Source: Ruicaihuangia caeni (lineage in GTDB: Bacteria > Actinomycetota > Actinomycetes > Actinomycetales > Microbacteriaceae). From it: a stretch of DNA of 64,000 nucleotides. The DNA lies in assembly GCF_029952955.1 (NCBI RefSeq), contig NZ_JASATX010000002.1:245316-309315 (forward strand). The letters run 5' to 3'. Under the pieces are notes generated by a model that was not told where the DNA came from, ran no database searches, and saw only the letters and a program-made list of their open reading frames with translations. Made by a program: the position numbers and the translations under genes. Positions 6,960 through 41,887 of this stretch are shown here, piece by piece (the stretch's first letter is position 1; each line of letters begins with the position of its first letter).

Positions 6960-6978
6960 GGGACCAGAGGAACAAGAC

Positions 6979-7818: not shown

Positions 7819-7830
7819 GAGTTGTAGAAG

Positions 7831-8112: not shown

Positions 8113-8138
8113 CGCGGTGACGTGAGGAGGAAAGAAAC

Positions 8139-9254: not shown

Positions 9255-9256
9255 CC

Positions 9257-9676: not shown

Positions 9677-10005
9677 TGGCGATCGGTTCCAAGGAGTTCG
9701 CACCCGCCGAGCTCGACACGTTCGAAGACGACCGGCTGGCTGACGCCCTGAAGAAGTCGAGGGAAGAGCTCTTCAACCTTCGCTTCCAGGCGGCGACCGG
9801 CCAGCTGGAGAACCACGGCCGCCTCCGTGCGGTCAAGCGCGACATCGCTCGCATCTACACGGTGATCCGTGAGCGCGAGCTCGGTATTCGTGCCACCCCC
9901 GCCCCGGTCGAGGCTCCCGCCAAGGCCGAGAAGAAGAGCAAGGCCAAGAAGGATGCCGCTGAGTCGGCCGCTCCCGAGGCCGCTGAGACCGAGGAGACCA
10001 AGTAA
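9676..10005 (+). CDS. rpmC: 50S ribosomal protein L29 with C-terminal tail
   Basis: A 109-residue protein. Residues about 10-75 are L29 ([20 protein letters not shown], then [13 protein letters not shown]). The last 30-35 residues form an Ala/Lys/Glu low-complexity tail, so it is longer than the usual 60-80 residues. The ATG at 9676 overlaps the rplP stop; the frame is open further upstream inside rplP, but that part is not L29. Confidence 0.95.
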
Positions 10006-26801: not shown

Positions 26802-26851
26802 ACAGCCGTGCGGGCGTCATCGCCCTGGCACGCTCCGGCGCCGAAAAGCGG

Positions 26852-26881
26852 TGCGCCGGCGAGACAGTCCTCGCCGGCGCA
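26852..26881. terminator. Bidirectional terminator at the left edge of the island
   Basis: A perfect 12-bp stem (26852-26863 with 26870-26881) and a 6-base loop lie between the convergent dehydratase and dehydrogenase genes. Confidence 0.8.
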
Positions 26882-26902
26882 ACGCCTCACCGCATGTGGT
26901 GA

Positions 26903-27937
26903 TCAAGCCGTGGTCAGAACGACCTTCGTCATCTCCTTGGCGTCGAACGCGCGGTATGCCTCCTGCGCCTCGTCGAGCGGCATGGAGTGCGTGAGCACCG
27001 GCGAGGGGTCGATCGATCCGGCCTGGATGCCGGCGAGCAAGCGCTCTCGGTCGCGCGACGGGTCGCCGACCGAGAACACGAGCGTCAACTCCTTCTCGAA
27101 CATGGTGCCGTTGTTCAGGGGGAAGTCGGGCTCGAAGTGGGCGCCGATGACCGACACCACTCCCTGAGGCCGCGCGAGATCGAACGCGCCCTTCATGGCC
27201 GGGACGCTGCCCGACGCCTCGATGACGACATCCGCGCCGAGCCCAGCGGTCGCCCGCTCGACGGCGGCTGGCGCGTCATCCGGTGACACGGCGGTCGCGC
27301 CCAGCTGCTCGGCGAGTTCGCGTCGCTCAGCGACACCATCGACGGCGATCACCGTGCGTGCGGTGCCCGCAGAGCTGATGATCGACATGAGCCCCACCGG
27401 TCCGCAGCCCAGCACGACCACGACGTCGCCGAAGCCGACGCCCGCACGCCGCACACCGGCGAACCCGGTCGGCAGGATGTCGGCGATGAACACCGCCTGC
27501 TCGTTCGTGACCCCTTCGGGAACCTCGAAGAGCGAACGGTTGGCGAACGGCACACGCACGAGTTCAGCCTGCCCGCCGTCCAGGCGAGGGTAGACGCCGG
27601 AGTATCCGAACAGTGACCGGTTCTCGCACTGGGTCGGGCGGCCCGCCCGGCAGTGTCGGCACGTGCCGTCGGAGGTCATGCTCGTGTTCACCACGCGCAT
27701 ACCCGGCTTCACCGCGGTCACCCGATCGCCGACCGCCACGATCTCACCGACGAACTCGTGGCCGGGGATGGTGCCGAACTCGAATCCTGGCGTGTAGCCG
27801 TGGTACGGGAGCAGATCGGCGCCGCAGATCGCGCTGTGGGTGACGCGGACGATGGCGTCGTCATCCGATTGCAGTTGCGCGTCGGGTGCATCCTCGACCC
27901 GGATCTGCTCTTTGCCGACGAGGCGGACGACCTTCAT
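26903..27937 (-). CDS. Zinc-type alcohol dehydrogenase (MDR family)
   Basis: A 344-residue medium-chain dehydrogenase. Catalytic zinc ligands are Cys38 and the GHE pair (His60, Glu61). The Rossmann motif is VLGCGPVGLM near residue 175. The structural zinc loop keeps Cys93, Cys96 and Cys104, but the first of the four cysteines is Asp90. It overlaps the VOC gene by 4 bases (ATGA), so the two form one operon divergent from the B6 cluster. It might oxidise pyridoxine or 4-pyridoxate, the steps for which no known enzyme is present here. That role is inferred from position only. Confidence 0.85.
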   Translation of the reverse strand: MKVVRLVGKEQIRVEDAPDAQLQSDDDAIVRVTHSAICGADLLPYHGYTPGFEFGTIPGHEFVGEIVAVGDRVTAVKPGMRVVNTSMTSDGTCRHCRAGRPTQCENRSLFGYSGVYPRLDGGQAELVRVPFANRSLFEVPEGVTNEQAVFIADILPTGFAGVRRAGVGFGDVVVVLGCGPVGLMSIISSAGTARTVIAVDGVAERRELAEQLGATAVSPDDAPAAVERATAGLGADVVIEASGSVPAMKGAFDLARPQGVVSVIGAHFEPDFPLNNGTMFEKELTLVFSVGDPSRDRERLLAGIQAGSIDPSPVLTHSMPLDEAQEAYRAFDAKEMTKVVLTTA

Positions 27938-28335
27938 GCCAGGGTCTCCAATTCGATGAGGTTTCCTTCAGGATCGGTCAAGAAGAAGCGTGCGCCGCCC
28001 CACGGCGGGCGGAACACCTCCGAGCGAACCTCCACGCCGGCCGAGCGGAGCTGCTCGTACGCGGCGTCGCAGTCATCGACCTCGAGCACGAGGCAGTGAT
28101 TCGGGGTCGGCCCCTGAGGCAGCACCGTCATGGTGAAGCCGGGGAGATCGTTCGCCGGGTGGCCCTGCTCGGCGAGCGAGAGGCGGGTGGCACCGTTGAC
28201 GAGCGTCGTGTATGCGGGGCTCTCGTACTGCGCCTCGACCGTGAAGCCGAGGTGGGTGGTGTAGAAATCAGTCAGCGCGGCGACATCGTCTACCGCGAGA
28301 ATGACGCCGGCGCGGTTCGCTGAGATTGGCGGCAT
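27934..28335 (-). CDS. VOC (glyoxalase/bleomycin-resistance fold) protein
   Basis: A 133-residue two-module VOC protein: NRAGVILAVDDVAALTDFY starts the first beta-alpha-beta-beta-beta unit and NHCLVLEVDDCDAAYEQL the second, ending FLTDPEGNLIELE. Members bind a metal and act as isomerases, dioxygenases or binding proteins. The substrate cannot be inferred. Co-transcribed with the dehydrogenase. Confidence 0.85.
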   Translation of the reverse strand: MPPISANRAGVILAVDDVAALTDFYTTHLGFTVEAQYESPAYTTLVNGATRLSLAEQGHPANDLPGFTMTVLPQGPTPNHCLVLEVDDCDAAYEQLRSAGVEVRSEVFRPPWGGARFFLTDPEGNLIELETLA

Positions 28336-28441
28336 GGGTCTGTGCTCCCTGTTCCTCGTCGTTGAGGCAGGCGTGAACGCCCGCTCACTAAAGTATGTCG
28401 GAATCGTACATGGCGCGAAAGCTGGATCAGATGGTGCGAAT

Positions 28442-28906
28442 ATGAGCCAAGTTATTGCCCGCAGGAGTCCTTGCCGATCGGGCGTGCGGCAGAGCGCGGC
28501 CTTCCGCGCGTTTGCGGTCGCCGTTGCCGTGGCAGGGCTGCTCTCGGCGTGCTCAGCACCCTCGGCGCCGGCTCGCGCGATCGACGACCTCGGCGCCGAT
28601 GACCAGCGGATGCTGTCGCAGATCGCCCCGATTGCCGCGCGCGACGCGGCGGCCGAGCATACGCGCTTCGTGGACTGCTGGGTGCCGTCCGATCACGCCA
28701 TCGACGGAGAGCCCAGCCACTTCAAAGTGCTCTGCAGGGTCGCGTTCGACGAGGCAGGAGAGCAGCGTCAGCGCGACATGATCTGCATCGGCGCCTTCGA
28801 TGATGACCCGCCGCTCGATTACTGCTATGACTGGGCGTACTACACCGATATGCCGTCGTTCGACGATTCGGATGCCGTCAGGCTCGACCTCTCCCACAAG
28901 GGTTGA
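28442..28906 (+). CDS. Small secreted lipoprotein of unknown function
   Basis: A 154-residue protein with an N-terminal signal (Arg-rich start, hydrophobic VAVAVAGLL) and lipobox LLSAC with lipidated Cys37. The mature part has four further cysteines (in VDCWVP, VLCRVAF, MICIGAF and DYCYDW), which could form two disulfides outside the cell. I do not recognise a family. It stands between the divergent MDR/VOC pair and the B6 cluster. The promoter for the next gene overlaps its stop. Confidence 0.7.
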   Translation: MSQVIARRSPCRSGVRQSAAFRAFAVAVAVAGLLSACSAPSAPARAIDDLGADDQRMLSQIAPIAARDAAAEHTRFVDCWVPSDHAIDGEPSHFKVLCRVAFDEAGEQRQRDMICIGAFDDDPPLDYCYDWAYYTDMPSFDDSDAVRLDLSHKG

Positions 28907-29041: not shown

Positions 29042-29800
29042 ATGACCGATCCCAAGGTGTACCTGCTTGATGGAGGGAGCCTGGTCATCGACCGCTCCCA
29101 GGTCTTCTGGCACCACGACATCGGGACGCCGGTTCGCTTCCCCGTCTACAGCGTGCTCGTCGAGCACAAAGACGGTCTGCTCATGTACGACACCGGTTAC
29201 GACCTCGAGCACACCCAGCGGGTCCTTCCCTTCGAACTGCCGGAGCAGACTCCCGAGCAGAGCATCCCGGCGCAGCTCGAGCTGTGCGGCTACAAGCCTG
29301 AAGACGTCGACATCGTCATCAACTCGCACTTCCACTTCGATCACGTCGGCGGCAATAAGTACCTCAAGAACGCGCGCGTGCTCGTGCACAAGGAGGAACT
29401 GCGCCACGCCCGTGTCCCCGAGCCCTTCGAGCGTCTGGGCTACTCCGACCTCTCCTTCGACTACGAAGGCGTGAAGTACGAGATGATCTCGGGCGACCAC
29501 GAGATCCTTCCGGGGATCTGGATCTATGAGACGCCCGGGCACACAGCGGGGCACTACTCGCTCTTCGTCGAGATGCAGAACGAGAAGTCGATGCTGTTCT
29601 GCGGCGACGCCGCATACACCTACGAGAGCATCGAGCGCGAGGTCATCGGTGGCTTCCACCTCGACCCGGTCGACTCGGTGGATTCGCTGCGCCGCCTCCG
29701 GTACCTGGCCCGCGCGAAGAACGCCGACCTCTACCCGTCGCACGAAATGGAGCCGTTCCTCACTTGGAAGAAGGCCCCCGAGTACTACGGCGGCAACTAG
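29042..29800 (+). CDS. 4-pyridoxolactonase (metallo-beta-lactamase fold)
   Basis: A 252-residue hydrolase predicted to open 4-pyridoxolactone to 4-pyridoxate. The metal-binding HFHFDH is at residues 96-101, TPGH at 164-167 and CGDAAY near 187-192. Generic annotation would call it an N-acyl homoserine lactonase. Family-specific strings such as KVYLLDGGSL, VRFPVYS, LPFE and FERLGYSDLSF match what I recall of the M. loti 4-pyridoxolactonase, and the neighbours are pathway enzymes. It is about 16 residues shorter, in one loop. AAGGAGGAG precedes the ATG. Confidence 0.88.
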   Translation: MTDPKVYLLDGGSLVIDRSQVFWHHDIGTPVRFPVYSVLVEHKDGLLMYDTGYDLEHTQRVLPFELPEQTPEQSIPAQLELCGYKPEDVDIVINSHFHFDHVGGNKYLKNARVLVHKEELRHARVPEPFERLGYSDLSFDYEGVKYEMISGDHEILPGIWIYETPGHTAGHYSLFVEMQNEKSMLFCGDAAYTYESIEREVIGGFHLDPVDSVDSLRRLRYLARAKNADLYPSHEMEPFLTWKKAPEYYGGN

Positions 29801-29865: not shown

Positions 29866-30609
29866 ATGGGAAACGCTGAGCAGGCTGCACAGCGCGTCGC
29901 CATCGTGACGGGAGCTGCCCAGGGGATCGGCGCGGCTATCGCCCGCCGGATCGCGAAGGACGGTGTCACCGTCGTCGTCGCCGACATCAACATCGACAAG
30001 GCCAACGAGGTTGCAGCATCCATCGGGGGCTACGCCCACAAGGTCGACGTGAGCAACGAGCAGTCCGTCAAGGAACTCGTGGATGCGGTGATGGAGAAGT
30101 ACGGCCGTGTCGACATCCTCGTGAACGACGCAGCCCTCGTGCCGCAGGTCGCCTGGGAGGACATCACCTTCGACGAGTGGCGTCGCGTGATGGCGGTCAA
30201 CATGGACGGCCTGTTCCTCATGACCAAGGCCGTGTCGAACCAGATGCAGGAGGCCGGGTACGGCCGCATCGTGAACATCGCCTCGAACACGTTCGTCGCA
30301 GGCACGCCGAACTGCGCCCACTATGTCGCCACCAAGGGTGCGTCGATCGGCTTCACGCGCGCACTCGCGGGCGAGCTCGGAAAGTACGGAATCACGATCA
30401 ACGCCATCGCCCCCGGCTTGACCGCCAGCGAAGGCGTCATGGCAGGCCCCCACGCTTCGGGCTTCGATTATGTGGTCCCGATGCAGGCGTTCAACCGCAA
30501 GGGCCAGCCCGACGACATCGCGCCCGCGGTGGCCTTCCTCGTCTCCGAGGAGGCCGGCTGGGTCACGGGCCAGACGCTCGTGGTCGACGGCGGTCACACT
30601 CGCAACTGA
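29866..30609 (+). CDS. Pyridoxal 4-dehydrogenase (SDR family)
   Basis: A 247-residue short-chain dehydrogenase predicted to oxidise pyridoxal (hemiacetal form) with NAD+ to 4-pyridoxolactone. TGAAQGIG (15-22) binds NAD, Asp40 after the second strand favours NAD over NADP, and the catalytic Ser140, Tyr153 and Lys157 are in place. LVPQVAW and ASNTFVAGTPN resemble the tetrameric M. loti enzyme. It follows the lactonase by 65 bases behind GAAGGAGTG, matching consecutive pathway steps. A generic SDR function is the alternative. Confidence 0.85.
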   Translation: MGNAEQAAQRVAIVTGAAQGIGAAIARRIAKDGVTVVVADINIDKANEVAASIGGYAHKVDVSNEQSVKELVDAVMEKYGRVDILVNDAALVPQVAWEDITFDEWRRVMAVNMDGLFLMTKAVSNQMQEAGYGRIVNIASNTFVAGTPNCAHYVATKGASIGFTRALAGELGKYGITINAIAPGLTASEGVMAGPHASGFDYVVPMQAFNRKGQPDDIAPAVAFLVSEEAGWVTGQTLVVDGGHTRN

Positions 30610-30751: not shown

Positions 30752-30766
30752 TCTCGCTATGCGAGA
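30752..30766. promoter_or_regulatory. TCTCGC-TAT-GCGAGA palindrome upstream of the oxygenase gene
   Basis: A 6-bp perfect inverted repeat with a 3-base centre lies just downstream of the possible -10 TAATAC and about 28 bases before the gene start. It is a candidate operator for the main catabolic unit. Confidence 0.4.
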
Positions 30767-30794
30767 TTTAGGACAAAAGATTCCGGAGGACCAG

Positions 30795-31922
30795 ATGAGC
30801 GAATCGAATGGTCGCCACGCAGAGGTGGCCGGCGGCGGTTTCGCCGGCCTCACCGTGGCCACCGCGCTCGCACAACGTGGGTGGAGCGTCACGCTCCACG
30901 AGAAGGGCGACGAACTGCGTGCGTTCGGCGCGGGCATCGTGCTGTGGCACAACAGCCTTGAGGTGCTCAAGGCCATCGGTGCATACGAGCCGCTCCTGCC
31001 GAAGTCGATGGTGCCGCCGTTCTACGAGACGCGCATGCACAATGTGACGCAGTCGAAGGAGGACTTCTGGGGTCTCGAGTGGCGCACGATGACGCGCCAG
31101 GACCTGCATGAGACCCTCGTCGATGCCGCTCGCAACAGCGGTGTCGACATCCGCGTCGCCTCGGAGGTCGTCTCGGCCGATCCGGCCGGCTCGGTGACCC
31201 TCGCCTCTGGCGAAGTGCGCAAGGCCGATCTGGTCATCGGCGCTGACGGCGTGGCATCGAAGGTGCGCGACTCGAACCACTTCGAACTCGAGCGCACGAA
31301 ATCCCGCGACGGCATCACCCGCCTCATCGTCCCCCGCCGCAAGGAAGACCTCGGCCCCGGCGAGTGGGACAACGTCATCGACTTCTGGAACCTCGAGCCG
31401 CGCGTGCTCCGCGTGCTCTACGTGCCGTGCAACGACGACGAGTTGTACCTGGCGCTCATGGCACCGATCGAAGACAAGGAAGGGTCGGCCGTGCCGATCA
31501 ACTACGACGTCTGGGTCGAGAGCCACCCCTACCTCGCCCCGGTGCTCGAGGAGGCCGCGAAAATCCACGGCCGTTACGACGGGTACCAGACCACCGTGCT
31601 GAAGCAGTGGACGAAGGGTCGCATCGCGCTCATCGGCGACGCCGGCCACGCCATGTGCCCGGCGCTGGCGCAGGGTGCCGGCACAGCGATGTCGAACGCG
31701 TACACCGTCGCAGTCGCAGCGACCGAGGCGGCCAATGCCGACCTGCCCCAGGCGCTCGTCGACTGGGAGGCCCGCGAACGCCAGATCACCGATGAGTGCC
31801 AGGAGCGCTCGGCGTGGTTCGCCGAGACCCGCAGCATGGCCAAGGGAAACCAGTTCACACCGCAGATGCTGGAGACAGCGCGGTACGACCCCACGACGAG
31901 GGAGATGATCAGTGTCGGTTGA
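30795..31922 (+). CDS. 2-methyl-3-hydroxypyridine-5-carboxylate oxygenase (MHPCO), FAD monooxygenase
   Basis: A 375-residue class A flavoprotein predicted to hydroxylate and open the pyridine ring of MHPC with NADH and O2, giving (acetamidomethylene)succinate. FAD motifs are GGGFAG (13-18), GADG (149-152) and GDAGHAMCPALAQGAG (281 on). Segments such as ELRAFGAGIVLWHN, GEWDNVIDFWN and the C-terminal SKGN-like MAKGNQFTP are those I recall for the M. loti enzyme of similar size (379). Start chosen at ATG 30795 behind CGGAGGA rather than the open frame from 30759. It overlaps the next gene by 11 bases. Confidence 0.9.
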   Translation: MSESNGRHAEVAGGGFAGLTVATALAQRGWSVTLHEKGDELRAFGAGIVLWHNSLEVLKAIGAYEPLLPKSMVPPFYETRMHNVTQSKEDFWGLEWRTMTRQDLHETLVDAARNSGVDIRVASEVVSADPAGSVTLASGEVRKADLVIGADGVASKVRDSNHFELERTKSRDGITRLIVPRRKEDLGPGEWDNVIDFWNLEPRVLRVLYVPCNDDELYLALMAPIEDKEGSAVPINYDVWVESHPYLAPVLEEAAKIHGRYDGYQTTVLKQWTKGRIALIGDAGHAMCPALAQGAGTAMSNAYTVAVAATEAANADLPQALVDWEARERQITDECQERSAWFAETRSMAKGNQFTPQMLETARYDPTTREMISVG

Positions 31923-32505
31923 GTCGCTGCCGGGCTATGAGGTCCGCACCTGGTACTCGGCGGTCGAGGAGATAGTTCGAGAGGCGGGGAACGAGCTCGA
32001 ACAGCCCCTCGTCAAGGCCGCCGTCGGCGTCGCCATCCGCAACCCCTTCGCCGGGAAGCCGTTCCAGCAGGATTTGAGCTCGCTCACCGATCCGAGTCGC
32101 GAACTCGGCATCCAGCTCGGCAAGCGCGCCGCGGCGCTGCTCGGCGGGCGTCCCGTCGAGGGCTACGGCAAGGGCGGAGTCGCGGGGATCAACGGCGAGC
32201 AGGAGCACGTTGTGGCCTGCGTCACCACGGTGTTCGGCAACGGATTCCGGGATGCCGTCGGCGGCGGTCGCGCCTGGATCTCCTCGGTGACCAAGGTCGC
32301 CGCCCCGGGCGTCTCCATCGACATCCCGCTCGCGTTCAAGGACGAGGTCTACGTACGCGACTACTACGACGGCATCACGCTGCACATCCCCGACGGCCCG
32401 CGCCCGGATGAGCTCCTCATCTGCGTCGCAGTGGCGAGCGGCCCACGCCCGCACGCGCGGGTCGGCGGCATGACGAAGCAAGAGGCGCTCGCTCAGTTCT
32501 CCTGA
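31912..32505 (+). CDS. DUF1185/AA_synth family protein
   Basis: A 197-residue protein that I place in the 'amino acid synthesis' (DUF1185) family from strings such as RTWYSAVEEI, NPFAGK, EGYGKGGVAGINGEQEH and DEVYVRDYYDGI. The family has no established reaction. The GTG start lies 11 bases inside the MHPCO gene, so the two proteins are made together. A role next to ring opening, such as handling a labile product or a side reaction, is a guess from position. Confidence 0.75.
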   Translation: MSVESLPGYEVRTWYSAVEEIVREAGNELEQPLVKAAVGVAIRNPFAGKPFQQDLSSLTDPSRELGIQLGKRAAALLGGRPVEGYGKGGVAGINGEQEHVVACVTTVFGNGFRDAVGGGRAWISSVTKVAAPGVSIDIPLAFKDEVYVRDYYDGITLHIPDGPRPDELLICVAVASGPRPHARVGGMTKQEALAQFS

Positions 32506-32549: not shown

Positions 32550-33299
32550 ATGAAGAAGCCTGGACCTCTGAACGCTCCGCCCGAGATCATGTCGGTGCTC
32601 GACGATCTGTCGCGCTCGCACCGCATCCTCGAGATGGAGGGGCACGGTGACATGTCCATGGGGCACTTGTCGTACCGCGACCCGGAAGGCCGCGGACTGT
32701 GGCTCAAGCGCGGCAACCTGGCGCTGAGCGAGGTGCAGCCCGACGACTACATCCTGATCGACTTCGACGGGAACGTGCTGCAGGGCGAGGGGCTGCGCCA
32801 CCTCGAGTGGCCGCTGCACGCCGAGATCATGAAGGCGCGCGATGACGTCAACTTCGTCGGCCACTCGCACGCTCACTTCGCGACGGTCTACGGAGCAGGC
32901 AAGGGCACACTCGGCCCGGTGAACAACCACGGCGTGTGGTTCGCGAACGGCGGGGTTCCCCGCTTCGACGAGACCAGCCACATCATCACCACGGTCGAAC
33001 TCGGCAAGGCGGTCGCCCGCACGCTCGGTGACGCCGAAGCCGTGCTGCTCGCCAACCACGGCATCGCATTCGTCGGCTCCGACGTGAAGTCGCTCACGCT
33101 GTGCGGCATCTTCCTCGAGTGGTCGGCCAAGTTCCAGATCGATCTCGAGGCCAGCGGCAACGACTTCGAGTTCCCGGATGCCGACGAGACGGTCGAGAAG
33201 AACCGGCGCATTTACCCCGAAGCCGCCCGCAACAACTACTGGTGGTACTTCAACCGCAAGCTCGACCGCCTCGAGGGGCGCGAGCCCCAGCCGATGTAG
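32550..33299 (+). CDS. 3-hydroxy-2-methylpyridine-4,5-dicarboxylate 4-decarboxylase (class II aldolase fold)
   Basis: A 249-residue protein of the class II aldolase/adducin family. Metal-binding histidines are expected in GHSHAH (His105, His107) and LLANHG, with the acid/base Glu region at LEWPLHAEIMKA. In M. loti the family member HMPDdc decarboxylates the 4,5-dicarboxylate to MHPC. The assignment here rests on the fold plus flanking pathway enzymes. A sugar-phosphate aldolase is the generic alternative. GAAAGGAAT precedes the ATG. Confidence 0.82.
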   Translation: MKKPGPLNAPPEIMSVLDDLSRSHRILEMEGHGDMSMGHLSYRDPEGRGLWLKRGNLALSEVQPDDYILIDFDGNVLQGEGLRHLEWPLHAEIMKARDDVNFVGHSHAHFATVYGAGKGTLGPVNNHGVWFANGGVPRFDETSHIITTVELGKAVARTLGDAEAVLLANHGIAFVGSDVKSLTLCGIFLEWSAKFQIDLEASGNDFEFPDADETVEKNRRIYPEAARNNYWWYFNRKLDRLEGREPQPM

Positions 33300-33337: not shown

Positions 33338-34279
33338 ATGTCGATCCCAGCAGTAGTCACGGTCGTAGGTTCGGGCACGATGGGCCCGGGCATCGCGGCC
33401 GTCTTCGCTCGCGCCGGTGCGCAGGTGCGCGTCTACGACGTCGTCGCCGAAGCCCTGACCCGTGCCGAGCAGGCCGTCGCGATGTGCGAGGGCGTGCTCG
33501 ACAACCTCGGCAGCAACAAGGTGGATGGCGGCAGCGTGTCGTACACGACCGACATCGCCGAGGCCCTGCGCGGCACCGAGTTCGTGCTCGAGGCCGTTCC
33601 CGAGCGCGAGGACCTCAAGAAGAGCGTGCTCGCCCAGATCGAGGCCGAGGTGAGCGACGAGACGATCATCGCGTCGAACACGTCCGGCATCCCGATCACC
33701 AAACTCGGCGAGGCGCTCAACGCGCCTGCGCGCTTCATCGGCATGCACTGGTCGAACCCGCCGCACCTGATCCCCATGATCGAGGTCGTGCCGGGCGAGC
33801 AGACCTCGGACGCCGTGCGCGACCGTCTCATCGAGATCGTCAACGCGTTCGGCTACGAGGCGGTGCTCGAGCGCGAGGTGCCCGGCTTCGTCGAGAACCG
33901 GGTCCTGTACGCGATCATGCGCGAGTGCCTCGCGCTCGTCGACGAAGGCGTCATCTCTGAGCGCGACCTCGACACCGCGGTGCGCTGGGGGATCGGGTAC
34001 AAGCTCGCGGTCGTCGGACCGATGCGCCTGCTCGACATGGCGGGGCTCGATATCTACACGAGCGTCGCGGGCTACCTCAACCGCGACCTGTCGAACACCG
34101 ACGGGGTGCCCGCCTTCATCAGCGACCGCGTTGCGTCCGGCAAGCTGGGCTTCAAGTCGGGCGGCGGCATCTTCGAGTACGGCGAGGGCGATGTAGCTGC
34201 GCTGCGCGGCGAGATCGTGCGCCAGCTCACTGCTGTTCGTAAGGCCATGCCGGCCCCTCTGAGCGACAACCCGGTCTGA
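33338..34279 (+). CDS. 5-formyl-3-hydroxy-2-methylpyridine-4-carboxylate 5-dehydrogenase (3-hydroxyacyl-CoA dehydrogenase fold)
   Basis: A 313-residue NAD+ enzyme predicted to oxidise the 5-formyl group to the 4,5-dicarboxylate. GSGTMG (11-16) is the nucleotide loop. His137 in GMHWSNPPH and Glu149 form the catalytic pair, and PGFVENRVLYA and WGIGYKLAVVGPM.LLDMAGLDIY follow. These fit the M. loti FHMPC dehydrogenase better than a beta-oxidation enzyme: no hydratase or thiolase genes are nearby and the enzyme has a single domain. AAGGAGA precedes the ATG. Confidence 0.87.
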   Translation: MSIPAVVTVVGSGTMGPGIAAVFARAGAQVRVYDVVAEALTRAEQAVAMCEGVLDNLGSNKVDGGSVSYTTDIAEALRGTEFVLEAVPEREDLKKSVLAQIEAEVSDETIIASNTSGIPITKLGEALNAPARFIGMHWSNPPHLIPMIEVVPGEQTSDAVRDRLIEIVNAFGYEAVLEREVPGFVENRVLYAIMRECLALVDEGVISERDLDTAVRWGIGYKLAVVGPMRLLDMAGLDIYTSVAGYLNRDLSNTDGVPAFISDRVASGKLGFKSGGGIFEYGEGDVAALRGEIVRQLTAVRKAMPAPLSDNPV

Positions 34280-34286: not shown

Positions 34287-35150
34287 ATGGCTGTCGAATC
34301 GCAAGACATGCAGCAAGGCGTGCAGGCAGGCGGGTTCGAGGATCGCCGGGTCAACACCGGTGACATCGAGCTGCAGGTGCGCGTGCGTGGAACAGGCGAC
34401 ACCACGGTGTTCCTGTTCCACGGCGTCACCGCCAACCTTGATGTGTGGCGCCCGATCGCCGAGGATCTCGCAGCGCAATTCACCGTGGTGGCGGTCGATC
34501 AGCGCGGGCACGGGCGAAGCGACAAGCCTGCCAGTGGATACACGCATACCGACTACAGCAACGATGTCATCGCTCTGGTCGAGCAATTGGGCGGCAATGG
34601 CGGCAAGGACGTCGTAGTCGGCCACTCGCTCGGGTCGCGCAACGCGACGGTCGCGACCGCCCGGCGCCCAGATCTCATCGACGGCTTCGTCGGCATCGAC
34701 TTCACGCCGTTCATCGAGACAGAGGTCTTCGATTCTCTCGAGGCCAGGGTCAACGGTGGAGACCAGCACTTCGCTGATCGCGATGCGGTCATCGAGTACT
34801 TGCAGAACCGGTACCAGAAGATCCCGCGCGAGGCGATCGTGCGCCGCGCTGACTATGGCTACGTGCGCGACGGTGATGGACTCCGCCCGCTCGCCTCGCC
34901 CGAAGCCATGGCGCAGACTGTCACGGGGCTCCGAGCAGACCTCGCACCATTCACCGAAGACGTCGCCCGGCCCGCGCTGTACATCCGCGGCGCGGAGAGC
35001 ACGCTGGTCACCCAGGCCGCGTTCGAAGCCACCAGGCGCCTGCGTCCCGACCTCGGCTACCAGCTGGTCGACGACGCTGACCACTATGTTCCAGAGGAGC
35101 AACCGCGAGCGATCGCGGACAGCATCCGTTCGTTCATCGCCGGGCTCTGA
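34287..35150 (+). CDS. 2-(acetamidomethylene)succinate hydrolase (alpha/beta hydrolase)
   Basis: A 287-residue hydrolase predicted to split the ring-opened product into succinic semialdehyde, acetate, ammonia and CO2. The triad is Ser114 (GHSLG), Asp138 (GIDFTPFIETE) and His266 (DDADHY). All three fall at the M. loti AAMS hydrolase positions shifted by eight. VDQRGHGRSDKP and LEARVNGG are further shared strings as I recall them. It begins 7 bases after the dehydrogenase stop and completes the core pathway. Confidence 0.88.
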   Translation: MAVESQDMQQGVQAGGFEDRRVNTGDIELQVRVRGTGDTTVFLFHGVTANLDVWRPIAEDLAAQFTVVAVDQRGHGRSDKPASGYTHTDYSNDVIALVEQLGGNGGKDVVVGHSLGSRNATVATARRPDLIDGFVGIDFTPFIETEVFDSLEARVNGGDQHFADRDAVIEYLQNRYQKIPREAIVRRADYGYVRDGDGLRPLASPEAMAQTVTGLRADLAPFTEDVARPALYIRGAESTLVTQAAFEATRRLRPDLGYQLVDDADHYVPEEQPRAIADSIRSFIAGL

Positions 35151-35172: not shown

Positions 35173-35628
35173 ATGCCACTCAACATCAAGGACCTCAAGG
35201 TCACCAGCCCCGACATCGGAACGCTCGAGAAGATCGACGACCGGTTCGCAGCCGAGACGGGCAACCAGGTGCCGCGGGTGCAGATCTCGGGTGCGCCGGC
35301 CGAGGCCGTGGAGCTCGCGCTGATCCTGCACGACCCCGACGCGCCGCTGGCGAACGGGTTCACGCACTGGACGGTATACGGCATCGACCCGTCCACCACC
35401 GAACTCGGCGGTGACGCTGCCGTGGGGCGCACCGGACCGAACGGCATCGGCGAGAAGGCGTACACCGGACCGCAGCCGCCGCACGGTCACGGCACCCACC
35501 ACTACTACTTCTGGGTGTACGCGCTCGACACGAAGGTGGAAGGCGAGCCGACTCGCGAGGAGTTCCTGGCCAAGTACGCGGACAATATCATCGAGCAGAA
35601 CCGCACGGTCGGCACGTACGAGCGCTGA
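35173..35628 (+). CDS. PEBP-family protein (YbhB/YbcL type)
   Basis: A 151-residue protein of the phosphatidylethanolamine-binding protein family: ALILHDPDAPLANGFTHW carries the conserved D-x-D-A-P pocket, and GEKAYTGPQPPHGHGTHHYYFWVYALD the P-P-x-G-x-H loop. Such proteins bind small anionic ligands, and the bacterial ones are mostly uncharacterised. It sits 22 bases after the last pathway hydrolase behind GAAAGGAAGG and before the regulator. A ligand-binding or scavenging role for an intermediate is speculation. Confidence 0.85.
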   Translation: MPLNIKDLKVTSPDIGTLEKIDDRFAAETGNQVPRVQISGAPAEAVELALILHDPDAPLANGFTHWTVYGIDPSTTELGGDAAVGRTGPNGIGEKAYTGPQPPHGHGTHHYYFWVYALDTKVEGEPTREEFLAKYADNIIEQNRTVGTYER

Positions 35629-35683
35629 TCAGCCCGATTGGCGAGGGCGGCCGATAGCGGTCCGGCAAAGGAGAGAGTTGGCG

Positions 35684-36505
35684 ATGCAGTCGACGTCGAC
35701 GCAGGGCAACACGACGCAGGGCAACACGACGCAGGGCGCGGGCGCTGCGGCGCAGAACAAGACGAAGGGCGTCGACAGCGCACGCCGCGTGCTGCAGATC
35801 CTGCTGCAATTCGGCGAGTCGAAGCCCGAAGTCACGATCGAAGAGGTCGCCGCGCAGCACAACATCTCGATCCCCAGCGCATACCGCTATATCGCGCTGT
35901 TGCGCGAGCTGTATCTCGTCGAGGAGCGCAACCGTGGCACCTACGTGCTGTCGCCGCAGGTGCTGCGGCTGACAGCCGCTGCGGAGGCCAGCATCGACGT
36001 GGCAGCGGCCGCCCAGCCCGTGGTCGACCGACTCGTCGCGCAGACGGGTGAGACCGCGCTGGCCATGCGCCGCATCGGCGACAGTGCGGTCTGCGTGGTC
36101 TCGTCGCAGCCCGACCTGACGCTCGGCATCTCGTTTCGGCCCGGCCACCTCATGCCTCTGCATCGAGGCGCCGGGCCGAAGGTGCTGCTCGCGTCGATGC
36201 CGCGATCGCGACGCGAGTCGTATCTGAGCCGGGTCATGCACGAGTCCAGCCCCGCGCGGATCGACGGGTTCCGCGATGAACTGCGAGCCATTGCGAAGGC
36301 CGGCCTCGCGATCTCCGACTCCGAGGTGGACGACGGTATCTGGGCTGTGGCCGCGGCCGTGAACGTCGAGAACACCGTCGTGGCGACGATCAGCATCGCC
36401 GGCCCGTCGTTCCGCATCGGCGAGGCGCGGCGCGAAGAGCTCGTCGCGACGGTGCAGGCCGCTGCTCGTGAGGTAGAGGCCGCCATTCGACGCGAAGAGG
36501 CGTGA
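35684..36505 (+). CDS. IclR-family transcriptional regulator
   Basis: A 273-residue regulator. Residues about 27-90 are the winged helix-turn-helix (ARRVLQILLQF, VAAQHNISIPSAYRYIALLRE). Residues 95-270 are the effector-binding IclR domain (GETALAMRRIG, LHRGAGPKVLLA, WAVAAAVNVENTVVATISIAGP). ATG 35684 is 10 bases after AAGGAG; a TTG at 35678 is less likely. The first 25 residues are a TQGNT repeat tail. It is the only regulator in the island and probably senses a B6 metabolite. Confidence 0.9.
   Translation: MQSTSTQGNTTQGNTTQGAGAAAQNKTKGVDSARRVLQILLQFGESKPEVTIEEVAAQHNISIPSAYRYIALLRELYLVEERNRGTYVLSPQVLRLTAAAEASIDVAAAAQPVVDRLVAQTGETALAMRRIGDSAVCVVSSQPDLTLGISFRPGHLMPLHRGAGPKVLLASMPRSRRESYLSRVMHESSPARIDGFRDELRAIAKAGLAISDSEVDDGIWAVAAAVNVENTVVATISIAGPSFRIGEARREELVATVQAAAREVEAAIRREEA
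35698..35737 (+). repeat. 15-bp in-frame tandem repeat in the IclR gene
   Basis: GACGCAGGGCAACAC occurs twice, followed by its first ten bases. It encodes TQGNT units in the disordered N-terminus. Copy number changes would keep the reading frame. Confidence 0.85.
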
Positions 36506-36850: not shown

Positions 36851-37942
36851 ATGTCACGTTCCACAGTTCTTCCCAGGAGGCTCGCCAAGGTCGGTCTCGC
36901 CGCGGTGCTGGGAGCAGCTCTTCTCGCTACGGCGGGCTGCACTGCTCGAGGCGGTGACACCGGTGATACCGGTGACAACGGCAAGGCCGAAGGCACGAAG
37001 GTCGAGCAATTCGCCATCGTCACGCCCGAGAAGGAATCCGACCACGGTTGGAACCAGCAGGGCATCTGGGCTGCTCAGCAGGTGGCCGACGAACTCGGCA
37101 TCAAGCTCGATGACAACTCGAACGTCGGTTACGACAACACCGAGACGATCCTGAGCCAGGTGGCCGAGAAGGGCAACGACTTCATCATCGCCCACGCCAG
37201 CGGGTTCAACACCGCCGGTGCCCGCGTCGGACAGAGCACCGGTGTTCCCGTGCTCGTGGTCGACTACGACCAGAACGTTCCCGGCAAGGTCGCGACCGTC
37301 ATGACCGAAGCGCAGGAGGGCGCATACCTCGCCGGCGTCGCGGCTGCGATGAGCACCACGACCAAGACCGTCGGCGTCGTGGTCTCGGCGGAGGACCTCA
37401 ACTGGTTCACCATGTCGGGTGGCTTCGCGCAGGGCGTCTACAGCGTCGACCCGTCCATCAGCGTCGTGCTCGCCTACATCGGCCCCGCTGAGTACGGCGA
37501 CTCGGCCGGTGGACGCAACGTGGCCGCTCAGGTGATCGCGGCCGGCGCCGACGTCATCTTCGGCATGGGCGACGGCGCGACCGTCGGCTACCTGCAGGCG
37601 ATCGAGACCGCCAACACCGGCTACCCGGTGCGCTACATCGCCACCATCGGCGACGTGACCGAGGCCGTGACCGACCCGAGCATCGTGCTCACCTCGGTGC
37701 TCTGGAACTTCGCCGACGCGTACAAGCAGGCGATCGCCGACATCGAGGCCGGCACCTTCGGTGAGAAGTCGTACTCGCTCACGGTCGAGAACGGCGGTCT
37801 CACGCTGCAGGAGAGCGACCAGCTCACCGACGAGATCCTCGCCGCGGTCGAAGAGGCCAAGAAGGGCATCATCGACGGCTCGGTCAAGGTCGAGAAGACC
37901 ACGACGAAGGACGCGGTCCAGGCCGTCATCGACGCCCACTGA
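36851..37942 (+). CDS. BMP-family ABC transporter substrate-binding lipoprotein
   Basis: A 363-residue lipoprotein with signal peptide and lipobox (LATAGC, Cys30), then a BMP/PnrA type-1 binding fold: DHGWNQQG, NTETILSQV, GVPVLVVDYD and the glycine-rich GADVIFGMGDGATVGYLQ. PnrA-like proteins usually bind purine nucleosides. The genetic context here suggests a B6 vitamer (pyridoxamine, pyridoxal or pyridoxine). ATG 36851 starts a proper signal peptide. It opens the operon with ATPase, two permeases and the aminotransferase. Confidence 0.92.
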   Translation: MSRSTVLPRRLAKVGLAAVLGAALLATAGCTARGGDTGDTGDNGKAEGTKVEQFAIVTPEKESDHGWNQQGIWAAQQVADELGIKLDDNSNVGYDNTETILSQVAEKGNDFIIAHASGFNTAGARVGQSTGVPVLVVDYDQNVPGKVATVMTEAQEGAYLAGVAAAMSTTTKTVGVVVSAEDLNWFTMSGGFAQGVYSVDPSISVVLAYIGPAEYGDSAGGRNVAAQVIAAGADVIFGMGDGATVGYLQAIETANTGYPVRYIATIGDVTEAVTDPSIVLTSVLWNFADAYKQAIADIEAGTFGEKSYSLTVENGGLTLQESDQLTDEILAAVEEAKKGIIDGSVKVEKTTTKDAVQAVIDAH

Positions 37943-38131
37943 TCCATCGAGCGCGGCCGGCCCGCGCCGATCGACACCGATTGATCGGCGCGAAGCCGCT
38001 CGCGCGCAGCAACACTCGACACCGGGTCGTCCCGGGGCGGGCGCTCAGACGCCTTCCCCGGGACGCCGCCCGACATCAGGAGACGACGTCGTTTCCGAAC
38101 AGGGACGCGGCTCCAGAGAGAGAAGCAAGTC

Positions 38132-39766
38132 ATGAATCGTGCAGACCTTCACGCTCCGGTGGAAGGCGCGCAGAACGAGGTCCTCGTCAGGCTCGAGGGC
38201 ATCGGCAAGGTGTTCCCAGGGGTCGTCGCGAACGACGACATCAGCCTGGAGGTGCGCCGCGGGCAGGTGCACTGCCTGCTCGGCGAGAACGGCGCGGGCA
38301 AGTCGACGCTCATCAGCATCCTGGCCGGCATGCAGCAACCCGACAGCGGCCACATCGAGATCAACGGCGCGCGCGTCGCGATCAGCTCTCCGCGCGTCGC
38401 CATGGACCACGGCATCGGGGTCGTCTATCAGCACACGACCCTCATCCCCACCCTCACGGTGCTCGAGAATCTGATGCTCGGCGACACCGGCAGACTCCCG
38501 CTGGATCGCAAGGGCGCGATGAAGCGGCTCAAGGAGGTCAGCGCCAAGCTCGGCGCCGACATCAACCCCAATGCTCTCGCCGGCGACCTCGGTCTCGGGC
38601 AGCAGCAGCAGGTCGAGATCGCCAAGGCGATGTGGCAAGGATCGAAGGTGCTCATCCTCGACGAGCCCACCTCGATGCTGACACCGCAGGCGATCGCCGA
38701 GCTCGAAGAGAGCGTCAACCGCCTCAAGGCCGAGGGGCTCGCCGTGATCTTCATCACGCACAAGCTGCGCGAGGCATACGCGATCGGCGACTGCGTGACT
38801 GTGCTTCGTGGCGGCCGCATGGCCGCGTACATCAGTCCTGAAGAGCTGAGCCAGTACGACGAAGAGGCCGCGAAGAAGCGCATCCTCGAGGCGATGTTCG
38901 GCGACGACATCGACAACGTCAGCGCCGACCAGGCGGAGGAGCTCGCCGGTGCGACGCGCGCCGGGCAGGACCATGACGCGGATGCCGCGGCATCCCGCCC
39001 TGTCGTCCTCGAACTCCGCGGAGTCTCGAGCCACGCCGGCCGCATGGAGATCGGCATCGAAGACGTCTCAATCGCCGTGCACGCGGGCGAAGTGCTCGGC
39101 ATCGCAGGCATCGACGGCCACGGCCAGAGCGCGCTCGCCGAGACCATCGCAGGTCAGCGCTCGGCGCAGAAGGGCGCCGTGCTCTTCGAGGGCCGCGAGG
39201 TGACCAAGCTCGGCGTTCGCGCCCGCCAGCGGCTGGGACTGCGGTACGTCACCGACGACCGGCTGCACGAGGGCATCGTGGGCGACCTCTCGGTCGCGGT
39301 GAATCTCGTGCTCAAGCGCATCGGCCAAGCACCCTTCTGGAAGCGGGGGCAGATCAACCGCTCGGCGGTTCAGGCCGAAGCGGCCGAGCGGATCGCGGAG
39401 TACGAGATCCGCACGCCGGGAGCGGACACGCGCGCCGGTACGCTCTCCGGCGGAAACATCCAGAAGATCCTGCTCGCGCGCGAGCTGTCGCACGACCCGA
39501 AGGTCGTCGTGTTCCACAAGCCGACGTACGGTCTCGACCTCAAGACCGTGCACCGTGTTCGCGAGGCCGTGCGCCGCTTCGCAGCGGAAGGCGGGGCCGC
39601 GCTCCTCATCTCGACCGACCTCGACGAGCTCGTGGAGCTCTCCGACCGCATCGCCGTCATCTCGAAGGGCCGCATCGTCGGAGAGGTCGCGAACGACTCG
39701 TCGGGAACGAGCGAGCGAGTCGGCGAGCTCATGACCGGTTCGACCCGCGAGCCCTCGCTCGCCTGA
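38132..39766 (+). CDS. ABC transporter ATPase with two nucleotide-binding domains
   Basis: A 544-residue fused ATPase of the BMP/ribose-type importer class. Domain 1 has GENGAGKST (51-59) and LILDEPTS, but a degenerate LGQQQQ signature. Domain 2 has a degenerate Walker A (GIDGHGQSA), a canonical LSGGN signature and HKPTYGLD in place of Walker B, so only one of the two composite sites looks fully competent. Such asymmetry is known for this class, although the Lys in the second Walker B is unusual. AGAGAGAAG precedes the ATG. Confidence 0.93.
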   Translation: MNRADLHAPVEGAQNEVLVRLEGIGKVFPGVVANDDISLEVRRGQVHCLLGENGAGKSTLISILAGMQQPDSGHIEINGARVAISSPRVAMDHGIGVVYQHTTLIPTLTVLENLMLGDTGRLPLDRKGAMKRLKEVSAKLGADINPNALAGDLGLGQQQQVEIAKAMWQGSKVLILDEPTSMLTPQAIAELEESVNRLKAEGLAVIFITHKLREAYAIGDCVTVLRGGRMAAYISPEELSQYDEEAAKKRILEAMFGDDIDNVSADQAEELAGATRAGQDHDADAAASRPVVLELRGVSSHAGRMEIGIEDVSIAVHAGEVLGIAGIDGHGQSALAETIAGQRSAQKGAVLFEGREVTKLGVRARQRLGLRYVTDDRLHEGIVGDLSVAVNLVLKRIGQAPFWKRGQINRSAVQAEAAERIAEYEIRTPGADTRAGTLSGGNIQKILLARELSHDPKVVVFHKPTYGLDLKTVHRVREAVRRFAAEGGAALLISTDLDELVELSDRIAVISKGRIVGEVANDSSGTSERVGELMTGSTREPSLA

Positions 39767-39788
39767 GTCCGCGACCCAAGGACCATCC

Positions 39789-40967
39789 ATGACCACGAAT
39801 ATGCAACTCGCACCCTCCACCGGTGCGCCGCAACCCGCTCCCTCCACGGATGCGGTCCCGCAGCCCAAGCAACGAGGCCGAGGCCGCGCCGCAGTCGACG
39901 TGCTCGTGCGCACCATCACCCCGGTGGTGCTCGCGCTGCTCGCCGGTGCACTGGTGCTGCTCATGCTGGGCAAGGACCCGCTGCAGTTCTACGGCGACAT
40001 CGTCTACTACGGCCTCGCCGGCAACGGTTGGCAGAACAGCATGATCGCGATGGCGCCGCTGCTGCTCATCGCACTGGGCCTCATCATCGCCTTCCGCGGC
40101 AAGCTGTGGAACCTCGGCTACAACGGCCAGTACCTGCTCGGCGCGGCCATCGTCGCGGGCTTCGGTCCCGACATCCTGGTCTCGTTCCCGCTGGCGATCG
40201 GCATCCCGCTGCTCGCCATCATGGCCATCGTCGTGGGCGCCGCGTGGACGATCATCCCCGCGCTGCTCAAAGCGAAGTACGGCACGAACGAGATCATCAC
40301 TACGCTGATGATGTCGTTCATTGGCGTCTCGGTCACCAACATCCTGGTGAAGGGGCCGTTCCAAGACGCGAGTGTGGCGGTGCCGCAGACGCGTGAACTG
40401 CCGTTCGACGGCATGCTGCCGTACATCCCGGGCACGAAGGTGCACATCGGGTTCATCATCGCGATCCTGATGGTGCTCGCCTTCCACTTCATCCTCAAGC
40501 GCACCTCGTTCGGCCTGCGGCTCGACGTGTTCGGCGCGAGCACGAAGTCGGCGAAGCACGTGGGCATCGACGCGCGCAGGATGACGATCGTCATCTTCGT
40601 GCTCAGCGGCGCGATGATCGCGCTCGCCGCGGCCATCGACATCATGGGCCTGTGGGGCTACCTGCGCACCAACTGGAACCCTGCGTACGGCGACAAGATC
40701 CTGCCGTTCGTGTTCCTCGCCCGGCTCAACCCGCTCGCATCGATCCCGCTCGTCGCGTTCTACGCGGTGCTGGCCACCGGTGGAACGATCGCCGCGCAGG
40801 CGAGCAACTTGTCAGTCGACTTCCTCTTGGTGATCGTCGCGCTGATCCTGATGTTCATGACGATCATCGAGTACATCGGCATGAAGCGCGATCTCGGCCA
40901 GAGCTACCTGCCACAGGGGCTCCGCCAGTCGCTTCGTCTGGGCTCGGTTGGAAGGAAGAAGCAATGA
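39789..40967 (+). CDS. ABC transporter permease (BMP-type, first subunit)
   Basis: A 392-residue membrane protein with a Pro/Gln-rich cytoplasmic N-terminus (about 35 residues) and about nine hydrophobic segments. It has the coupling-helix region GLRLDVFGASTKSAKHVGID and KYGTNEIITTLMMSF typical of BPD_transp_2 nucleoside/branched-chain permeases. It follows the ATPase by 22 bases and overlaps the second permease by 4 bases. Confidence 0.9.
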   Translation: MTTNMQLAPSTGAPQPAPSTDAVPQPKQRGRGRAAVDVLVRTITPVVLALLAGALVLLMLGKDPLQFYGDIVYYGLAGNGWQNSMIAMAPLLLIALGLIIAFRGKLWNLGYNGQYLLGAAIVAGFGPDILVSFPLAIGIPLLAIMAIVVGAAWTIIPALLKAKYGTNEIITTLMMSFIGVSVTNILVKGPFQDASVAVPQTRELPFDGMLPYIPGTKVHIGFIIAILMVLAFHFILKRTSFGLRLDVFGASTKSAKHVGIDARRMTIVIFVLSGAMIALAAAIDIMGLWGYLRTNWNPAYGDKILPFVFLARLNPLASIPLVAFYAVLATGGTIAAQASNLSVDFLLVIVALILMFMTIIEYIGMKRDLGQSYLPQGLRQSLRLGSVGRKKQ

Positions 40968-41887
40968 CCGAGGCGATCCTCGTCGCATTCCTCATCGGCA
41001 CGATCGCCGCCGGCATGCCGCTCATGCTCGCGGCGCTGGGCGAGACGATCGGCGAGCAGTCTGGCGTGCTGAACCTCGGTATCGAGGGAATCATGCTCAT
41101 CGGAGGCTACTTCGGCTTCGTCGCAGTGCTCATGACGCAGTCGTTCTGGCTCGGTCTCCTTGTGGGTACGCTCGCCGGCGTGGCGAGCTCGCTCATCATG
41201 CTCGTGCTGAGCGTGTGGCTGGGGCTGAACCAGATCGTGGTCGGTATCGCGATCACGCTCGCGGGATCCGGCATCACGAGCGTGCTGCACACCCAGAACT
41301 ACGGCTCGACCAACCCGCGACTCGGTCTCGACACGCCCTGGAAGATCCCGTTCCTCAGCGACATCCCCGTCGTGGGCCCGAGCATCTTCTCGCAACCGGG
41401 CATGTTCACCGTGGCGCTGCTCATCGCGGCGGCGGTCGCCTGGTGGCTGCACAAGACGAACCCCGGACTCCGGCTCCGAGCGGCCGGACAGAAACCCGCC
41501 TCCCTGGATGCCGCCGGCGGAAGCGTGCTGCGAACCCGCTCGCTCGCGGTGCTGGCAGGCGGAGCCTTCTCCGGTCTCGGTGGCGCGTATCTCGCGCTGC
41601 TCTCGACCGGGGCGTTCACGCCCTTCATGACGCACGGACTGGGGTACATCGCGATCGTCGTCACGATGCTCGCCCGCGGTCGCATCTCCTGGGTGGTCGT
41701 GGCCTCGCTCGTCTACGGGGCCTCGGTCGCAGTGGGCACAGCCATCCAGCTGACGAACATCAACCTGCCGAACGACGTCATCAAGATGCTGCCGTTCATC
41801 ATCGTGATGATCACGCTCATCGTGTTCGCCCGCAGCGCGTACATCCCGCCGGCGCTGGCGGTTCCGTACACTCGAGGCGCTCGCTGA
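40964..41887 (+). CDS. ABC transporter permease (BMP-type, second subunit)
   Basis: A 307-residue membrane protein starting MTEAILVAFLIGTIAAGMPL, with GVLNLGIEGIMLIGGYFGF and NPGLRLRAAGQKPASLDAAG as the coupling helix. It shows about eight membrane segments. ATGA overlap with the first permease, behind GGAAGGAAG. The two form a heterodimeric channel. Confidence 0.9.
   Translation: MTEAILVAFLIGTIAAGMPLMLAALGETIGEQSGVLNLGIEGIMLIGGYFGFVAVLMTQSFWLGLLVGTLAGVASSLIMLVLSVWLGLNQIVVGIAITLAGSGITSVLHTQNYGSTNPRLGLDTPWKIPFLSDIPVVGPSIFSQPGMFTVALLIAAAVAWWLHKTNPGLRLRAAGQKPASLDAAGGSVLRTRSLAVLAGGAFSGLGGAYLALLSTGAFTPFMTHGLGYIAIVVTMLARGRISWVVVASLVYGASVAVGTAIQLTNINLPNDVIKMLPFIIVMITLIVFARSAYIPPALAVPYTRGAR

Follow-up and report, generated by a model that had tools for sequence, protein, structure and literature searches.

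A stretch of 64,000 nucleotides from Ruicaihuangia caeni (contig NZ_JASATX010000002.1, positions 245,316 to 309,315 of the forward strand; hereafter the window) carries a cluster of genes for the degradation of vitamin B6. At one edge of this cluster, and transcribed away from it, lie two overlapping genes encoding a zinc-type alcohol dehydrogenase of the medium-chain dehydrogenase/reductase (MDR) family and a small protein of the vicinal oxygen chelate (VOC) family. The original prediction for this locus was that the pair might replace a missing oxidation of a pyridine hydroxymethyl group, in either pyridoxine or 4-pyridoxate. Our comparative analysis places the pair in the B6 pathway and points to pyridoxine as the probable substrate. 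The pair and its flanking signals, in window coordinates, are:

26903..27937, minus strand: MDR zinc alcohol dehydrogenase, proposed NAD-dependent pyridoxine 4-dehydrogenase (PF08240 and PF00107, orthologue residues, fold)
27934..28335, minus strand: VOC protein of 133 amino acids, proposed non-metal ligand-binding partner (PF00903, Glyoxalase)
28336..28441, no strand: putative shared divergent promoter region (head-to-head spacing, likewise in locus L103)
26848..26885, no strand: likely terminator, a strong hairpin flanked by the MDR 3' end and the convergent upstream gene (16-bp imperfect inverted repeat)

The MDR product of 344 amino acids contains ADH_N (PF08240, 83.8 bits) and ADH_zinc_N (PF00107, 70.7 bits) domains, and the domain scan found no glucose-methanol-choline oxidoreductase (GMC) domain in it. 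No NCBIfam model accounts for it, the best match scoring 168 bits where the cut-off is 450. The two open reading frames (ORFs) share 4 bases, and together with the domains they bear out the description of a zinc-type MDR gene overlapping a VOC gene and divergent from the B6 genes. The VOC start lies 106 bp from the likely start of the divergent lipoprotein gene (28442); at L103 (L and G numbers are our handles for loci and genomes) the VOC and lactonase genes also stand head to head. A palindrome search of the intergenic regions found no convincing operator common to them. In two genomes of the same genus, glmM and CitE-coaA-glmS occur in the same order with no match to MDR, VOC or other B6 genes between them, which places the pair inside the island. 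The cluster itself continues on the other strand:

28442..28906, plus strand: small lipoprotein with a signal-like N-terminus (ORF; relatives beside the lactonase gene in many clusters)
29042..29800, plus strand: 4-pyridoxolactonase (NF047925, 423 bits, cut-off 325)
29866..30609, plus strand: pyridoxal 4-dehydrogenase of the short-chain dehydrogenase/reductase (SDR) type (NF047923, 398 bits, cut-off 325)
30759..31922, plus strand: 2-methyl-3-hydroxypyridine-5-carboxylate oxygenase (MHPCO), an FAD oxygenase (PDB 3alj, 476 bits)
31912..32505, plus strand: AA_synth family protein (PF06684)
32550..33299, plus strand: decarboxylase of the class II aldolase type, so assigned from its family and place in the cluster (PF00596)
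33338..34279, plus strand: 5-formyl-3-hydroxy-2-methylpyridine-4-carboxylate (FHMPC) 5-dehydrogenase, proposed to act on 4-pyridoxate as well (NF042925, 401 bits; PDB 4om8, 305 bits)
34287..35150, plus strand: (acetamidomethylene)succinate (AAMS) hydrolase (PDB 3kxp, 265 bits)
35173..35628, plus strand: YbhB/YbcL-family protein with a hand-counted start (TIGR00481 matched by the relative in L009)
35654..36505, plus strand: regulator, start approximate (ORF; relatives in B6 clusters)
36851..41887, plus strand: BMP-type ABC transporter comprising binding protein, ATPase and two permeases (PF02608 in the first gene)
41926..43104, plus strand: pyridoxamine-pyruvate transaminase (PPAT) (NF046070, 439 bits)

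The window had been said to encode every later step of the pathway. This is well founded for the lactonase and the SDR, which exceed their NCBIfam cut-offs, and for MHPCO and the hydrolase, which are recognized from solved structures; the decarboxylase is assigned solely as a class II aldolase, so completeness is likely rather than proven. All PDB matches of the decarboxylase at E≤1e-15 are named 'Aldolase', and it shares 29–32% identity with the counterpart gene in loci that follow the Mesorhizobium loti gene order; this step, too, may be carried out by a displaced or strongly diverged enzyme. The FHMPC dehydrogenase and the PPAT fall below the cut-offs of their best families (500 for NF042925 and 600 for NF046070). 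The transporter genes after the first were named by eye and are kept across B6 clusters, and the regulator is presumably of the IclR type. The lipoprotein gene is kept next to the lactonase gene in many Microbacteriaceae B6 clusters.

We searched the whole genome (10 contigs, 98.7% complete) for the two FAD-dependent GMC enzymes of the M. loti pathway, pyridoxine 4-oxidase and 4-pyridoxate dehydrogenase. GMC_oxred_N gave 0 matches, and neither enzyme found a match at E≤1e-20. The predicted absence of both enzymes is thus borne out genome-wide, and a GMC-type 4-pyridoxate dehydrogenase outside the window was looked for and not found.

To trace the pair across genomes, we used the FHMPC dehydrogenase as bait in a collection of 84,980 species, kept the best 80 of 217 relatives and mapped the window proteins onto their loci, other than the short L001–L008. 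The MDR and VOC genes recur in many of the mapped loci. Within the family, a clear FHMPC dehydrogenase is present in 18 of 299 genomes (at least 373 bits; the next match scores 239). Searches that began with the MDR gave the same association: the 299 family genomes, our own included, hold four orthologues at 62% identity or more, all four inside B6 clusters (one on a broken contig reading permease-permease-PPAT-VOC-MDR), and two of 396 phylum genomes, again counting our own, have one at 71% or more, each within a B6 cluster. Altogether, 25 of 25 MDR orthologues (51–100% identity) lie in B6 clusters, the L156 orthologue being tied to its cluster by a contig equal in length (45,986) to that of L041, and three homologues checked at 39–42% identity are not beside B6 genes. 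The hosts are mostly Actinomycetota, with some metagenome-assembled genomes (MAGs) labelled Chloroflexota, Acidobacteriota or Pseudomonadota. Given that, in the window, the pair is transcribed separately and lies at the edge of the island, it could be argued that the two genes are chance neighbours of the cluster. The clustering of every orthologue, and the position of the VOC start directly after the SDR gene in L043 and directly after the PPAT gene in L009 and L011, make this explanation very improbable. The comparative data strongly support the view that the MDR and VOC proteins are a genuine, widely shared component of the B6 pathway, and that they stand in for the missing hydroxymethyl oxidation.

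We then classed 60 genomes: 22 carry the MDR, 18 are actinobacterial genomes with pyridoxine oxidase (oxidase type), 9 are of an importer type described below, 5 have neither enzyme (G321, G323, G326, G336 and G340), 1 is unclear (G176) and 5 are alphaproteobacterial controls. The addition of G732 and G733 raised the MDR genomes to 24 distinct ones (25 handles, of which two share a contig); G012 carries the MDR and stood outside the GMC searches. A pyridoxine 4-oxidase orthologue (71–81% identity) is present in all five controls and in 0 of the 24 MDR genomes, whose best GMC proteins reach 33–44% identity to it. Conversely, 0 of the 18 oxidase-type genomes has an MDR orthologue, one having a 34% homologue; the genome-wide searches for the MDR covered this type apart from L020, L023 and L028. 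A Fisher test of this mutual exclusion gives 4e-6 with relatedness ignored, and on a tree of the FHMPC dehydrogenase it takes 8 changes to account for the MDR label and 3 for the oxidase label. Several candidate exceptions were followed up. MDR-family ORFs about 8 kb from the oxidase-type L020 locus were rejected as orthologues (32% identity). The apparent lack of the MDR from five loci of the molybdenum (Mo) type described below (L041, L042, L052, L067 and L040) was also rejected, as their genomes carry both MDR and VOC. At L050, from a small MAG, the VOC gene is present and the MDR was found neither locally nor genome-wide. L053, L057, L074, L010 and L019 are unclassified or incomplete loci.

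Gene position distinguishes the two candidate reactions. Of the loci that carry MDR and/or VOC, 26 are distinct (duplicates L091=L011, L153=L103 and L155=L082 removed by hand; the other neighbour counts keep duplicates), and SDR or PPAT adjoins the pair in 21 of them and the FHMPC dehydrogenase in 0; MDR matches below 48% and SDR matches below 38% identity were dropped from all such counts. Pyridoxine oxidase behaves similarly, its neighbours in 43 loci being SDR in 29, PPAT in 7 and FHMPC dehydrogenase in 0, although in four loci of the M. loti order only a regulator adjoins it. The neighbours of the GMC 4-pyridoxate dehydrogenase in 11 loci are instead the FHMPC dehydrogenase (5), the decarboxylase (4) and ABC importer genes (4). 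Between the two substrates first proposed, pyridoxine is therefore favoured by the exclusivity with the oxidase and the mostly shared position; the case for 4-pyridoxate has weakened, since the GMC enzyme for that step is also missing where there is no MDR. Because the MDR and the oxidase exclude each other and both lie mostly beside SDR or PPAT, the MDR is most likely an NAD-dependent pyridoxine 4-dehydrogenase.

That last argument depends on telling the two GMC enzymes apart. The alphaproteobacterial loci with what we take to be the M. loti gene order carry two. The first matches the solved pyridoxine 4-oxidase at 889 bits; the second stands directly before the FHMPC dehydrogenase, scores 266 bits against pyridoxine oxidase and is taken, by position, as 4-pyridoxate dehydrogenase. 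In a tree of 40 GMC proteins, which leaves out 13 from L089 onward, duplicates among them, the two kinds separate fully and 17 actinobacterial cluster proteins group with the oxidase (PDB 4ha6); those outside the tree are 63–84% identical to one of the 17. By this grouping, actinobacterial B6 clusters carry GMC enzymes of the pyridoxine 4-oxidase kind. In G305 (L024) the oxidase is split over two frames.

A genome-wide search found an orthologue of the GMC 4-pyridoxate dehydrogenase (at least 65% identity) in all 5 alphaproteobacterial controls and in none of the 55 other genomes, among them one MAG labelled Rhodospirillales. As this enzyme is missing from these genomes with or without the MDR, the MDR is not its general replacement. 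Candidates in the other 54 genomes beyond the controls reach at best 46% identity and were rejected. In a later tree, the tested GMC proteins fall outside the 4-pyridoxate dehydrogenase clade except those of L111, L112, L117, L119 and L123, whose placement in that clade is weakly supported (44); the surroundings of the GMC genes in nine genomes, these five loci included, hold no B6 genes beyond generic SDR or ABC matches of 24–37%. A GMC protein of the oxidase-type genome G190 (L120 in this tree), 43% identical to 4-pyridoxate dehydrogenase and encoded about 28 kb from the FHMPC dehydrogenase, belongs to another clade and was set aside. The GMC proteins of G312, G313, G322, G326, G330 and G732 and second copies elsewhere, judged by identity alone, are 33–43% identical to pyridoxine oxidase.

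The main rival to pyridoxine oxidation is that the MDR is a 4-pyridoxate 5-dehydrogenase replacing the FAD-dependent GMC enzyme, in bacteria that degrade pyridoxal and pyridoxamine but not pyridoxine. The step is obligatory, no other dedicated gene for it is visible in MDR clusters, and the GMC enzyme is missing; moreover, no tested MDR genome has a pyridoxine oxidase orthologue, so that pyridoxine use there is only presumed. The difficulty is that 18 oxidase-type and 9 importer-type genomes keep the FHMPC dehydrogenase with no orthologue of the MDR or of the GMC 4-pyridoxate dehydrogenase, and these need another way in any case. Three of the nine (G187, G332 and G333) have no GMC match whatever at the threshold used, and in the MAGs G321 and G340 PPAT, SDR, lactonase and FHMPC dehydrogenase are present and neither GMC nor MDR was found. 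The MDR also never adjoins the FHMPC dehydrogenase, and no Arg or Lys is invariant in its clade yet absent from all three outgroups, as a carboxylate substrate might require. We consider this rival unlikely.

The oxidoreductase common to all these cluster types is the FHMPC dehydrogenase itself. Its tree intermingles the MDR, oxidase and importer types and so offers no hint that the function changed between them; by this comparison the 4-pyridoxate step in MDR clusters probably falls to the FHMPC dehydrogenase. In M. loti this enzyme is known as an NAD-dependent dismutase, which also converts FHMPC and 4-pyridoxate into each other; its relative UDP-glucose dehydrogenase performs two oxidations of this kind one after the other.

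The importer-type clusters (L014, L015, L021, L027, L029, L038, L039, L064 and L065, all actinobacterial) combine ABC importer genes, NMT1-type in L021, the one scanned, with the FHMPC dehydrogenase and the lower pathway. Their genomes hold no orthologue of the MDR or of either pathway GMC enzyme, and stretches of up to 10 kb on each side contain no lactonase or SDR, for which no genome-wide search was made. In L060 and L079 an importer of this kind adjoins the 4-pyridoxate dehydrogenase, which suggests that 4-pyridoxate is what it carries. We regard these clusters as candidate systems for using 4-pyridoxate, a B6 waste product of animals.

The MDR alignment holds 25 orthologues, three of them incomplete (L011, L012 and L054). 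The catalytic zinc-site residues C38, H60, E61 and D153, read from the sequences alone, occur in all 25, as does D200; Asp at that position usually favours NAD, and its invariance fits an NAD preference. Of the four positions where zinc-type MDR alcohol dehydrogenases may have structural Cys, C93, C96 and C104 are present in 25 of 25; at the first, 18 sequences have Asp and 7 have Cys. CGADLxP and LFG[YF]SxxYP stretches mark the clade. A Ser/Thr proton relay two residues past the catalytic Cys is common, if not universal, in MDR alcohol dehydrogenases; here position 40 is Ala in 25 of 25, against Ser or Thr in 3 of 3 outgroups and Ser in PDB 4cpd. This lowers the case for a typical alcohol dehydrogenase and leaves MDR membership unaffected. 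The model (predicted local distance difference test score, pLDDT, 84.9; below 50 at residues 106–117) best matches the fold of 4cpd, the Thermus enzyme TADH (Z 41.6, root-mean-square deviation 2.3 over 339 residues, 36% identity). The VOC model (pLDDT 94.8) has the antibiotic-binding proteins TnmS1 and MRD among its best fold matches. An alignment of 17 VOC sequences shows an invariant PPWGG-R and neither a conserved His/Glu metal triad nor any invariant His. The protein is probably a non-metal binder of pyridoxine or pyridoxal, acting as carrier or protector of the reactive aldehyde.

The lost proton relay hints at unusual chemistry, the VOC protein lacks a conserved metal site, and linkage gives pathway membership, not substrate. 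The MDR could accordingly act elsewhere in B6 catabolism, for instance on another vitamer or on a side product together with the VOC protein, or could interconvert pyridoxal and pyridoxine as a reductase. Such a role would leave the exclusivity with the oxidase and the shared position beside SDR and PPAT unexplained, and we think it distinctly unlikely, more so than 4-pyridoxate oxidation.

From the observed linkage, orthology, oxidase exclusivity, gene position and GMC absence, we infer the substrate and cofactor of the MDR, the double role of the FHMPC dehydrogenase and the role of the VOC protein as follows. The MDR and VOC proteins would form the entry module of the degradation cluster. 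The MDR would oxidize the 4-hydroxymethyl group of pyridoxine with NAD+ to give pyridoxal, in place of the unrelated FAD-dependent pyridoxine 4-oxidase, and pyridoxal would also arise from pyridoxamine through PPAT. The VOC protein would bind pyridoxine or pyridoxal without metal, as a carrier or aldehyde protector. The SDR would convert pyridoxal to 4-pyridoxolactone and the lactonase would open this to 4-pyridoxate. The FHMPC dehydrogenase would then carry out both remaining oxidations, from 4-pyridoxate to FHMPC and on to the dicarboxylate, so that a separate 4-pyridoxate dehydrogenase is not needed. We hold this account, in which the MDR displaces the FAD oxidase and the FHMPC dehydrogenase handles 4-pyridoxate, to be probable, with moderate confidence.

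Several points weigh against it. The support consists of comparative sequence data and models, and many relatives are MAGs of uncertain completeness. In the genomes compared, pyridoxine oxidase of actinobacteria occurs solely in clusters of Microbacteriaceae, so the exclusivity reflects fewer independent events than the genome counts would imply. The usual Ser/Thr relay is absent from every MDR orthologue. The double role of the FHMPC dehydrogenase is an indirect conclusion, and alphaproteobacteria keep a separate 4-pyridoxate dehydrogenase, from which it appears that their FHMPC dehydrogenase alone does not suffice. The pyridoxine oxidase of oxidase-type genomes might act on 4-pyridoxate as well, and some of these genomes hold further GMC proteins, including that of G190 some 28 kb from the cluster.

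The FHMPC dehydrogenase loci also revealed other arrangements. Ten Mo-type clusters (L045, L046, L047, L048, L049, L050, L052, L055, L058 and L059; roughly positions 1000–10000) have FHMPC dehydrogenase, lactonase and SDR, most with MDR and/or VOC, and their stretches contain no MHPCO or AAMS hydrolase. They carry instead a Mo hydroxylase of the xanthine dehydrogenase type (c15 with c28 and c29), a luciferase-like oxidoreductase (c16), an M29-like protein (c17), whose fold presumably resembles the nicotinate enzyme NicX, and a cupin (c32), each identified by scanning one representative. The AA_synth (PF06684) protein, which adjoins MHPCO in nearly all MHPCO-type loci, is not found in Mo-type loci. 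The Mo-type clusters probably represent an undescribed ring-opening branch; to our knowledge no such Mo-hydroxylase route has been described for B6. Clusters of Rhodospirillales and relatives (L056, L060, L076–L081, L083 and L086) combine the FHMPC dehydrogenase with a cupin resembling gentisate or 5-aminosalicylate dioxygenase (c19, scanned in L083) and, in most, with an LVIVD-repeat protein (c18, scanned in L056), MHPCO not being found in the stretch. These are a possible further ring-cleavage variant.

Taken to its full extent, the proposal describes an actinobacterial B6 pathway I free of flavin-dependent alcohol oxidation, built from the MDR, a pyridoxal-binding non-metal VOC protein and a four-electron FHMPC dehydrogenase, with an entry module that also serves the Mo-hydroxylase ring-opening branch. 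We put this wider picture forward tentatively, as somewhat more doubtful than not. If the MDR is a pyridoxine dehydrogenase, it would add an unnamed enzyme family to vitamin B6 catabolism and explain B6 degradation in bacteria that lack the known flavin enzymes, and the apparently missing 4-pyridoxate dehydrogenase may be dispensable. With the MDR/VOC signature, B6 degraders can be recognized from their genomes, and B6 assays would benefit from an NAD-linked pyridoxine dehydrogenase. An existing coupled assay forms 4-pyridoxolactone by means of PNOX, PPAT and PLDH (PMC12393044).

No MDR-type pyridoxine dehydrogenase turned up in the literature searched, in which subscription papers were mostly outside coverage. 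The FAD pyridoxine 4-oxidase of M. loti (PDB 4ha6/3t37) shares with the MDR the proposed reaction and the usual place beside SDR or PPAT, but has an unrelated fold and another cofactor, being an FAD oxidase, whereas the zinc MDR would use NAD. The FAD 4-pyridoxic acid dehydrogenase of M. loti, whose relatives we identified by position beside the FHMPC dehydrogenase, likewise oxidizes a hydroxymethyl group of the pyridine ring and was not found where the MDR is present; it is an unrelated protein with other neighbours, and was not found in MDR-less actinobacteria either. The closest solved fold, TADH, is an MDR alcohol dehydrogenase of broad range with the same Cys, His-Glu and Asp zinc-site residues, and differs in having Ser where the B6 group has its invariant Ala and in lacking the two stretches that mark this group. 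The VOC protein shares with mitomycin-binding MRD and with TnmS1 the fold and the absence of conserved metal ligands; unlike them it is linked to B6 genes. With pathway I of M. loti, the window has in common the SDR pyridoxal dehydrogenase, lactonase, MHPCO and hydrolase, and probably PPAT and the FHMPC dehydrogenase; it differs in having neither GMC enzyme, with the MDR and VOC proteins instead, and a divergent decarboxylase.

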